Shown here: one piece after another, positions 2,516-31,437 of the stretch
Position numbering within the stretch: the first letter of the stretch is position 1
How the letters are laid out: each line of letters starts with the position of its first letter
DNA from: Gammaproteobacteria bacterium
Lineage (GTDB): Bacteria; Pseudomonadota; Gammaproteobacteria; SZUA-152
Assembly (NCBI GenBank): GCA_011371455.1
Contig: DRQN01000144.1
Coordinates: 1-32,768, forward strand
Length of the DNA stretch: 32,768 nt
Direction: 5' to 3'
The notes under the pieces: model-generated
What the model saw: the letters and a program-made list of their open reading frames with translations, nothing else
The model's database searches: none
What the model was told of the DNA's origin: nothing
Program-made: the position numbers and the translations under genes

Positions 2516-2564
2516 GCCCCGCCTCCCGCCGGAGCTTTACCCCGCCACGGCCCGTGCGCTATGT

Positions 2565-2593
2565 TGCACCTGAACCCACGGATTCAGGTTGCA
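2565..2593. repeat. Solo inverted repeat related to the MITE ends
   Basis: Arms TGCACCTGAA and TTCAGGTTGCA surround an 8-base loop (CCCACGGA). The 18 bases GAACCCACGGATTCAGGT are identical to the right end of the MITE-like element at 8914-9076. This looks like a single terminal repeat, or a minimal derivative, lying just upstream of pepP. As a hairpin it could also act as a weak transcription stop, but no T-run follows. Confidence 0.6.
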
Positions 2594-5361: not shown

Positions 5362-5396
5362 AGTCTATTTGCCACAGAGACACAGGGTTCACACTT

Positions 5397-5496
5397 GTGA
5401 CACCGCTCCGCAGTGTCACATACCCTGTGGCGCTCAGCGCCACTCCAGCCATGACGGATGAAACCAGCGCCAGCGTTACACCGCTGAGCGGTGTAA
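5397..5496. repeat. Three consecutive short palindromes downstream of ubiH
   Basis: Three separate stems occur within 100 bases: GTGACAC/GTGTCAC (5397-5419), GTGGCGC-TCA-GCGCCAC (5427-5443) and a perfect 21-base palindrome centred on 5486 with 10-bp arms (TTACACCGCT / AGCGGTGTAA). All have a centre related to GCTNAGCG, like REP-type sequences. They may end or stabilise the ubiH transcript. The third palindrome is the start of the direct repeat that recurs at 7567. Confidence 0.7.
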
Positions 5497-5562
5497 TAAG
5501 AGAAAATATCTTTTTCTTTGCGTCCTCTGCGTTGAATCGGCGGGGTTCGGTCGTGAAAGCAA
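5477..5562 (+). repeat. Direct repeat, left copy flanking the OLD-nuclease insert
   Basis: This 86-base stretch recurs at 7567-7669. Shared blocks are TACACCGCTGAGCGGT, then AGAAAATNTCTTTTTCTTTG plus CGTCCTCTGCG, and finally TTGAATNGGCGGGG and TCGTGAAAGCAA. The right copy differs by a 17-base insertion and a few substitutions. The two copies bracket the AAA/TOPRIM gene. The segment also belongs to a dispersed 'TTTGCGTCCTCTGCG' type repeat, so it may be either insertion scar or recombination substrate. Confidence 0.75.
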
Positions 5563-7690: not shown

Positions 7691-8893
7691 ATGACAACTA
7701 CCGACTACGACATCGTCATCATCGGCGGCGGCATGGTCGGCGCCAGCCTGGCCTGTGCGCTGGCCGACAGCAGCCTGTCCATCGCCGTCGTCGAGGGCCG
7801 TGAACCGCCCACCGAGTGGCCGGAGGACAGCTTCGACATCCGCGTCAGCGCCATCACACGCGCCTCGGAAAACCTGTTCCGCCGCCTGGGCACCTGGGAT
7901 AAAATGACCACGCTGCGCGTGCAGCCCTATGAGGCCATGGAGGTATGGGACGCCACTGGCTCCGGCCACATCCACTTCGACGCCGCCGAGCTGGGCGAAC
8001 CCAACCTCGGCCACATCATCGAAAACCGCGTCATCACCCGCGCCCTGCTCAACCGCCTGCGCAGCCACGACAACATCGACTACCGCTCCCCGGCCAGCCC
8101 CAAGCGCCTGTTGCTGCGCAGCGGCCAGGCCCAACTGCAACTGGACGACGGCAAGCTGCTCAACGCCAGGCTGGTGGTTGGCGCCGACGGCGCCCACTCC
8201 TGGCTGCGCCAGCAGGCCGGCATCGAGGTGCAGGAACGCCACTATCGGCAAACCGCCGTGGTTACCACGGTGCAGACCGGGCAATACCACCAGGACACCG
8301 CCTGGCAGCGCTTCCTGCCCACGGGGCCACTGGCCTTCCTGCCCCTGCCCGAGGGCCGCAGCGCCATCGTCTGGAGCACCAGCGCGGAGGAGGCCGAGCG
8401 CCTGCTGGCGCTGGACGCGGCCGATTTCATGGCCGAACTGGGCGAGGCCTTCGAACACCGTCTCGGCGCGGTCACCGGCGTCGGCCCACGCGGCGCCTTT
8501 CCGCTCAAGGGCCGCCATGCCAGGGAGTACGTCAAACCACACCTGGCCCTGGTGGGCGATGCCGCCCACACCATCCACCCGCTGGCCGGCCAAGGTGTCA
8601 ACCTGGGCCTGGCCGATGTCGAGGAGCTAGCCTCCGTGGTGCTGGCGGCGCACCGCGCCCAGCGCCCCGTTGGCAGCTTCAAGACCCTGCGCCGCTACGA
8701 GCGCGCGCGGCGCGGCGACAACCTGCTGATGCTGGACGCCATGGGCGCCTTCAAGGCCCTGTTCAGCAACGATACCCCGGTCCTGCGCGAGCTGCGCAAC
8801 CTGGGCCTCGATCTGACCGACCACGCCGGCCCGCTGAAAAATCTCATCGTTGCCCGGGCCATGGGCCTGGGCTCCCTGCCAGGCAAGCCCTGA
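7691..8893 (+). CDS. ubiI: UbiH/UbiF/VisC-family ubiquinone hydroxylase, probably UbiI
   Basis: FAD monooxygenase of ubiquinone biosynthesis, 400 residues. It carries the N-terminal IIGGGMVGAS motif, the UbiI/VisC-like FDIRVSAITRASENLFRRLGTW segment, VVGADGAHSWLR (DG motif) and the C-terminal GDAAHTIHPLAGQGVNLGLAD motif. The FDxRVSAI segment and long GHIIENRVI motif separate it from UbiH and support UbiI (C5 hydroxylation); UbiF activity (C6) cannot be excluded from sequence alone. A good ribosome binding site (CGGAGG) sits six bases before the ATG. It was probably once directly behind ubiH, and now has the OLD-nuclease insert upstream. Confidence 0.9.
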   Translation: MTTTDYDIVIIGGGMVGASLACALADSSLSIAVVEGREPPTEWPEDSFDIRVSAITRASENLFRRLGTWDKMTTLRVQPYEAMEVWDATGSGHIHFDAAELGEPNLGHIIENRVITRALLNRLRSHDNIDYRSPASPKRLLLRSGQAQLQLDDGKLLNARLVVGADGAHSWLRQQAGIEVQERHYRQTAVVTTVQTGQYHQDTAWQRFLPTGPLAFLPLPEGRSAIVWSTSAEEAERLLALDAADFMAELGEAFEHRLGAVTGVGPRGAFPLKGRHAREYVKPHLALVGDAAHTIHPLAGQGVNLGLADVEELASVVLAAHRAQRPVGSFKTLRRYERARRGDNLLMLDAMGAFKALFSNDTPVLRELRNLGLDLTDHAGPLKNLIVARAMGLGSLPGKP

Positions 8894-8913
8894 CCGTTCA
8901 TGGGTATTTTTCG

Positions 8914-9076
8914 ACCTGAATCCGTGGGTTCGGGGCGGATGAAGTACGCAACTGTTTGATTCGTATCGCGTAATGAAAAATCGAGGGAATAGCGGGGATT
9001 GTTGCCGAGATTTTTCATATAGCGAGGCGGATCAATGAGTTGTGTCATTCGCCGTCATGAACCCACGGATTCAGGT
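8914..9076. mobile_element. MITE-like non-coding element, copy A (163 bp)
   Basis: Terminal inverted repeats ACCTGAATCCGTGGGTTC are perfect over 18 bases. Imperfect pairing continues inward for roughly 55 bases, including matching CAACT and TTGAT blocks. An internal stem ATGAAAAATC/GATTTTTCAT (8973-8982 and 9009-9018) fills the centre. No ORF is present. A shorter copy lies at 16412-16520 and a solo end at 2565-2593. A 3-base TCG on both sides could be a target duplication, but this is weak. The structure fits a transposase-dependent MITE; the source transposase is not in the window. Confidence 0.8.
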
Positions 9077-9125
9077 TCGATATTGCCTCGGTGCTGTTCG
9101 GCTTTATCAATCGCCGTTACATCGA

Positions 9126-9269
9126 GCCGCCGGCGAACCGCGCGAGATCATCCTCGCTATTACCCATGTAATCGTCGTATTCTCCATTTCCGTGCAAGGG
9201 CTTACCATTGGCAGGCTGGTGAAGAGCGCCACCCGGGCAGGATCAAGTCGCGCAACGGACGGCCGCTAA
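9126..9269 (+). pseudogene. C-terminal remnant of an NhaP-type cation/proton antiporter
   Basis: The frame translates to AGEPREIILAITHVIVVFSI followed by SVQGLTIGRLVKSA, which is the characteristic last transmembrane helix and end of NhaP/CPA1 sodium-proton antiporters. No upstream part of the gene remains: the frame runs directly back into the right end of the MITE-like element. A full antiporter has over 400 residues; only about 45 are recognisable. This is a decayed 3' fragment, probably truncated by deletion linked to the element. Confidence 0.7.
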
Positions 9270-16411: not shown

Positions 16412-16520
16412 GCCTGAATCCGTGAGTTTAGGGCGGATAAAGCATGCAACTGCTTGACCCATATAGCGAGACGGATCAATGAGTTGTGTCATTCGCCGTC
16501 ATAAACTCACGGATCCAGGT
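16412..16520. mobile_element. MITE-like non-coding element, copy B (109 bp)
   Basis: Shorter relative of the element at 8914-9076. The left end GCCTGAATCCGTGAGTTTA and right end TAAACTCACGGATCCAGGT are inverted repeats. The inner blocks GGGCGGAT, GCAACTG and ATATAGCGAG, and a 20-base run CGGATCAATGAGTTGTGTCA near the right end, are shared with copy A. It lacks copy A's internal hairpin segment of about 54 bases. A matched G-to-A change in both ends (GTGAG/CTCAC) preserves pairing between them. Confidence 0.8.
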
Positions 16521-31211: not shown

Positions 31212-31267
31212 CATCCGTGTCGCCAGGGCGGGTGCAGAGTGTAACGCATTGATTTAGCTGTACTTTC

Positions 31268-31296
31268 AAAAAACTTCGCCCATCGGTTGGCGAAGT
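31268..31296 (-). terminator. Rho-independent terminator for cbpA-cbpM
   Basis: ACTTCGCC and GGCGAAGT pair across an 8-base loop (31273-31296). On the minus strand the stem is followed by a run of T (A-run at 31268-31273 on the plus strand). It lies about 140 bases beyond the cbpM stop; the bases between (31297-31437) show no gene. Confidence 0.75.
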
Positions 31297-31437
31297 GTAT
31301 CCCGCGGATAAACGGGCATTTCTTGGAAGTGCCGTGGAGACAAGAGCCCGTGCCTTGTGCCGTCACGAAGGCACGGTCTCAGGGCCAAGGCGCCCGTCCC
31401 CGCGGACCCACCGCCCGGGTCAGCGCAGCGTCATCAC

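Follow-up and report, generated by a model that had tools for sequence, protein, structure and literature searches.

The 161-bp repeat at positions 8915–9075 of the window (the whole analysed stretch of 32,768 nucleotides, contig 144 of the host assembly) is a genuine mobile element without genes, a MITE, and has been recently mobile. With a probability of about 75%, this copy, designated copy A, belongs to a widespread superfamily of fixed structure and is a non-autonomous MITE that DDE transposases of the IS1380 family move in trans by cut and paste. An earlier sequence-only reading had described it as MITE-like and as active or recently active. The MITE-like character is supported by terminal repeats, many copies, 5-bp target duplications, and empty orthologous sites. 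Recent mobility is supported by about 40 near-full-length copies in the host genome (86–97% identity), the 5-bp duplications, and the empty sites in related species.

Boundaries, copies, and target sites of the element

The following features were assigned to copy A and its flanks:

8910..8914, no strand: left copy of the target-site duplication (TSD), TTCGA; the empty sites of G006 and G003 have TTCGA once
8915..9075, + strand: full-length element, copy A, 161 bp (covariance model, 158.7 bits)
8915..8931, + strand: left terminal inverted repeat CCTGAATCCGTGGGTTC
8949..8961, − strand: IHF-like site AATCAAACAGTTG, matching WATCAANNNNTTR exactly and oriented toward the left tip
8976..9015, no strand: central hairpin AAAAATC...GATTTTT
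9030..9042, + strand: IHF-like site GATCAATGAGTTG, one mismatch, reading toward the right tip
9059..9075, − strand: right terminal inverted repeat
9076..9080, no strand: right copy of the TSD, TTCGA, from the empty-site comparison

The perfect 18-base ends noticed before are present at 8914–8931 and 9059–9076; their outermost A/T was reassigned to the edge of the 5-bp target duplication TTCGA. The element proper is CCTGAATCC...GGATTCAGG (8915–9075) with perfect 17-bp tips. The outer base is assigned to the duplication because some copies are flanked by C (TTTAC, TAAAC, TTCAC); the existence of these copies also led to the rejection of a 3-bp duplication with ACC...GGT ends. The imperfect inverted repeat beyond the ends was found to span almost the entire element, and the internal hairpin lies in its centre, where its A/T tracts are located on the inner side of both IHF-like sites. 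Folded as DNA, copy A reaches −49.9 kcal/mol compared with −19.6 kcal/mol for shuffled sequences (z −10.8).

A chance origin of the ends is excluded because the 13-mer end gave 216 matches at no more than one mismatch in the 2.1-Mb host genome (assembly G000: 2.11 Mb, 240 contigs, 74% complete), whereas the reversed control gave 0 matches. The genome-wide search thus found other copies to be plentiful; their absence would have spoken against the earlier reading. Target-site duplications, which that reading had left to be checked, were 5 bp long. Among the 37 full copies in the retrieved stretches of the host genome, to which the counts of full and 20-bp copies refer, 19 had an exact 5-bp duplication (26 if one mismatch was allowed), one had a 6-bp duplication, and none had 3 or 4 bp. 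In the same stretches, exact 5-bp duplications flanked 15 of 45 20-bp copies and 6-bp duplications four of 45; duplications of 3 bp did not occur. Controls with shifted boundaries gave about 0–0.2. Most duplications followed the pattern TNNNA, a preference for T...A.

The site of copy A is devoid of the element in G006 (...ATGGGTATTTTCGATTTTGCC...) and G003 (...ATGGACATCTTCGACATCGCC...), two species of the same genus. The 20-bp copy at 2569–2588 is missing at the same place in all six other genus members; two further 20-bp copies of the host are both absent from their sites in G006, and one of them is also absent in G003. Variable presence, which had been expected among strains, was therefore found between species. 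In G003, the gene at the copy A site encodes a sodium/proton exchanger (PF00999). The gene is present in G003 and reduced to a deleted remnant in the window (8893–9200) and in G006; its identification in G003 places copy A at approximately codon 4 of the gene, of which the window retains the remnant.

Three additional members were located in the window:

2564..2568, no strand: TSD TTGCA left of the 20-bp copy
2569..2588, − strand: 20-bp copy CCTGAATCCGTGGGTTCAGG, a likely remnant, about 25 bp upstream of a pepP-like gene
2589..2593, no strand: TSD TTGCA right of the 20-bp copy
16413..16519, + strand: copy B, internally deleted form
31212..31383, + strand: decayed, divergent relative (covariance model, 45.8 bits, E 1.4e-8)

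The family is multi-copy in the window, as the sequence-only reading had stated, but its count of three has to be extended by the decayed relative at 31212–31383, which retains one exact IHF-like site (31242–31254, − strand). Copy B is indeed a second member; its length of 109 bp was corrected to the span 16413–16519, and its deletion junction also occurs in other copies of the same genome. The supposed solo end at 2565 proved to be a 20-bp copy that is complete and has its own duplication (TTGCA/TTGCA).

The host genome also contains a truncated copy of a Sedimenticola-type subfamily (L186, G000:C162, from position 968 onward), which indicates that two subfamilies coexist within one genome. 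A separate repeat of approximately 100–140 bp at about 5390–5530 of the window has many matches of 75–90% in the genus members and is apparently unrelated to the 161-bp element.

Hairpin architecture, IHF-like core, and spread of the family

An alignment of 46 diverse copies from the host, other Chromatiales-type genomes, Thiodiazotropha, and Geothermobacter contained few gaps, with mean identities between groups of 59–66%. The aligned copies share one fold, a single long imperfect hairpin, in which 94.9% of the alignment cells are paired, compared with 30–43% for slid structures. Two-sided changes were found at 27 pairs and in 260 cells, compared with 18.8 and 86 in shuffles. Two-sided changes can also arise when one arm is corrected from the other; they therefore indicate that the palindrome is maintained, but are no evidence for an RNA.

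A search with a covariance model detected the family in every one of the seven genus members. Among the 369 sampled genomes of Gammaproteobacteria, 28 were positive (24 of 271 genera), as were 33 of 194 genomes from the Geothermobacter class (Desulfuromonadia). The matches are nearly always 158–164 bp long. The outer tips vary by lineage (CCTGAATCC, CCCTAATCC, CCTAGAAA, CCTAAATT), the core is conserved, and 5-bp duplications recur. A form of 181–185 bp with an insert of about 22 bp beside the left IHF-like site was observed in G003 (L267), G011 (L255), G006, and G001. Isolated matches of the 18-mer in Paenibacillus, Mycobacterium, and others were dismissed as chance, about seven being expected in 257 Gb by our estimate. 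The 18-mer was not found in IMG/VR and the element was not found in PLSDB; a phage or virus origin and a plasmid origin were rejected.

Selection on the hairpin as a structure of RNA or of single-stranded DNA (a terminator, an mRNA stabiliser, or a regulatory RNA), with mobility being secondary, would account for the strong compensatory change across lineages, the near-constant length of the element, and the location of one 20-bp site directly after a stop codon in two species. We consider this explanation unlikely. The arms carry a DNA–protein motif in inverted symmetry, which alone is enough to force pairing there, and the arms of a palindrome can correct each other during replication, which leads to covariation without selection on RNA. 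The insertion sites are species-specific, and no Rfam family matches the element.

The core consists of two inverted IHF-like sites (consensus WATCAANNNNTTR as quoted in PMC5896051), located 34–47 bp from each tip and flanked on the inner side by an A/T tract. In Gammaproteobacteria, both arms are within one mismatch of the consensus in 65 of 99 elements, compared with at most 0.13% of shuffles, and the sites begin at bp 34–35 from the tip. The inner sites of Desulfuromonadia, including Geothermobacter, lie at the same distance and match the IHF consensus poorly. Among IS1380 ends, an IHF-like site was present in only one of 11. In known IHF sites, the A/T tract is also located on the inner side. 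Judged by their sequence, the two inverted sites likely form an IHF-folded core, which may assist the synapsis of the tips.

IS1380-type tips and the probable origin of the 20-bp copies

The element combines CC...GG tips with 5-bp duplications, as does the IS1380 family, for which such tips and duplications of 4–5 bp are recorded in ISfinder and one member of which, ISEcp1, mobilises resistance genes. IS1380 transposases were assessed with NCBIfam NF033539 (cut-off 180 bits). In G341, the end of an insertion sequence (IS) of 1639 bp (294 bits), CCCCAATCCCCAGATAGAAAC, agrees in 20 of 21 bases with the MITE end of the same genome, CCCTAATCCCCAGATAGAAAC. A 1687-bp IS in G321 has the ends CCTAGAAAAATCAGTTA and the TSD ATGAT; they correspond to the MITE tips CCTAAAAAAATCAGTT of G215, which belongs to the same family as G321. 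The transposase of this IS likewise scores best with IS1380, but its 128 bits are under the cut-off, whereas those of G341 and G001 are above it. The IS of G001, a member of the window's own genus, is 1669 bp long (334 bits) and has the ends CCTGGATCCGAGCTTT/CCTGAATTCGAGCTTT; a matching 5-bp duplication was not found at its borders. Because IS1380 insertion sequences carry matching tips, transposases of this family probably move the element in trans.

A first PF13701 search of host genomes gave no matching ends, and a wider second search found them. The autonomous element asked for in the sequence-only reading was thus found as IS1380 copies with matching tips in relatives; the exact CCTGAATCCGTGG partner was not. 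In the host assembly, which is 74% complete, no intact IS with exact CCTGAATCCGTGG tips and only a partial PF13701 transposase match were detected. Beyond the first 16–21 bp, the similarity of IS ends to the MITE is no greater than that of shuffles, so the MITE is not a simple (Type I) internal deletion of the examined IS1380 copies. A search of the retrieved loci for an element arm joined to a transposase gene yielded truncated copies only. Near the transposase start, the IS1380 copies L300, L302, L303, and L309 possess a CACCC-NN-GGGTG-like hairpin at the transposase-proximal end, 76–89 bp from the tip. The MITE centre, often CACCCNNNGGTT at bp 75–76, recalls this hairpin, by shared origin or coincidence.

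In the proposed mechanism, the transposase would bind the 16–21-bp tips, and IHF would bind the two inner sites and bend the 161-bp DNA so that the tips can synapse. Bending by IHF is proposed because DNA of this length is too short to join its ends unaided. After synapsis, the transposase would cut and insert the element with a 5-bp stagger. The family has a named likely partner, IS1380, and a proposed, testable role of IHF in joining very short ends.

There is a small chance that another DDE family with C-rich ends and 5–6-bp duplications moves the MITE and that the match to IS1380 tips is coincidental. IS1634, with C ends and 5–6-bp duplications according to ISfinder, would be an example, and its transposases are present in some host genomes. 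However, such ends are absent from the IS1634 copies that were found, whereas IS1380 copies with matching ends occur in three lineages, in one case with the agreement of 20 of 21 bases within the same genome.

The 20-mers CCTGAATCCGTGGGTTCAGG are about as frequent in the host as full copies (48 compared with 37 in the retrieved part of the genome; 45 by a slightly different pattern), and 20-bp copies were found in nearly all gammaproteobacterial host genomes examined. Geothermobacter has one 20-bp copy compared with 29 full copies. Gammaproteobacterial left arms contain TTCAGG at bp 15–20, identical to the last six bases of the element; Geothermobacter arms mostly lack it. Many full copies have probably later been reduced in place to exactly 20 bp, with the target duplications left behind. 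The reduction could have occurred by hairpin-aided slippage between the left-arm TTCAGG and that of the right tip, the product of which would be exactly the 20-mer. The 20-bp copies are therefore likely scars of full copies, a reading based on sequence comparison, and account for a class of short palindromes that is abundant in these genomes. Slippage at TTCAGG fits Thiodiazotropha only in part, since 20-bp copies are present there although its three full copies read TTCAGA. In G003 (G003:C74, L373) and in the host (G000:C33, L157), separate 20-bp copies lie a few bases apart, just past the same stop codon.

That the 20-bp copies are independent transposition products, either a mobile 20-mer or the result of aborted transposition, appears improbable. 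Their highly uniform length and intact 5-bp duplications in many species would fit such an origin, but 20 bp are too short for two synapsed transposase sites, the 20-mers are seldom found in the absence of the TTCAGG arm repeat, and a species-specific variant in G003, CCTGAATCCGAGGATTCAGG, matches the tips of the local full copies. It is highly improbable that the 20-mer is a REP and the 161-mer a REPIN moved by a RAYT: short palindromes do occur singly and as inverted pairs with a spacer, but the ends match DDE IS1380 tips, and 5-bp target duplications of variable sequence are present at both ends, whereas REP/RAYT repeats are recognised by a GTAG/CGTC tag and the lack of target-site duplications, and RAYT-type elements, to our knowledge, make none.

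Comparison with known systems

We tentatively suggest, at somewhat less than even odds, that the elements of both classes form one ancient "bent hairpin" superfamily of about 160 bp with a fixed core of two inverted IHF-like sites and a central hairpin, whose tips have been replaced or have evolved to match different IS1380 partners and which seeds 20-bp palindromes. If so, the element would be defined by an architecture folded by a host protein rather than by its derivation from a particular IS, and the continually seeded 20-bp palindromes would otherwise pass as orphan regulatory motifs.

Searches of the available literature for the end motif and for Sedimenticola in combination with MITE gave no match, and the element fits no catalogued family among those tested (Chunjie, bcr1, and YPAL were compared by description only). 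The IS1380 family (ISEcp1, ISPme1; NF033539) shares the terminal CC...GG, the tip sequences, and the 5-bp target duplication. The element differs in having no gene; the likeness ends after 16–21 bp, and its palindromic core was not found in the IS1380 copies examined. The outside end of IS10 has a transposase tip with an IHF site just inside, which is used to fold the end, but IS10 is an autonomous IS of another transposase group with a 9-bp duplication.

Correia/NEMIS elements of Neisseria are likewise short palindromic MITEs that occur in a long and in an internally deleted version (107/155 bp); for the IHF site of the 155-bp form, binding in vitro is reported (PMC2229807). They have TA termini and one reported IHF site, in contrast to CC...GG and two inverted sites here; on account of the termini, membership was rejected. 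QMITE1 and QMITE2 of Coxiella burnetii are gammaproteobacterial MITEs with strong hairpins; QMITE1, described as unique to Coxiella, shares the WATCAANNNNTTR site, and QMITE2 decays to REP-like palindromes (PMC5896051). They differ in size and repeats (300–400 bp with 2–3-bp repeats, or 150–190 bp with 7–11-bp repeats). YPAL/RU-2 of Yersinia (approximately 168 bp; PMC2229807; PMC2267715) is similar in size, palindromic, and has a shorter deletion form. By description, it has internal inverted repeats and 3–26-bp duplications; with terminal repeats and 5–6-bp duplications, our element is set apart by definition. Chunjie of Geobacter uraniireducens is a MITE with partial copies in a Geothermobacter relative (PMC10969869); compared by size and not by end sequence, it is longer (178–235 bp, here 158–164 bp). 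The bcr1 element, a structured mobile repeat of about 150 bp with a 5-bp TTTAT motif, for which site-specific-recombination-like mobility was proposed, is by description restricted to the Bacillus cereus group and has a fixed TTTAT in place of the varying duplications seen here (PMC6542083).

The kind of element, a MITE, is thus already known. In the literature and databases searched, no single family is described that has a fixed core with variable tips, a double IHF-like arrangement, and 20-bp remnants in abundance. Bacterial MITEs are usually catalogued per species, whereas the present family, defined by its structure, occurs at almost unchanged length both in Gammaproteobacteria and in the Geothermobacter class.
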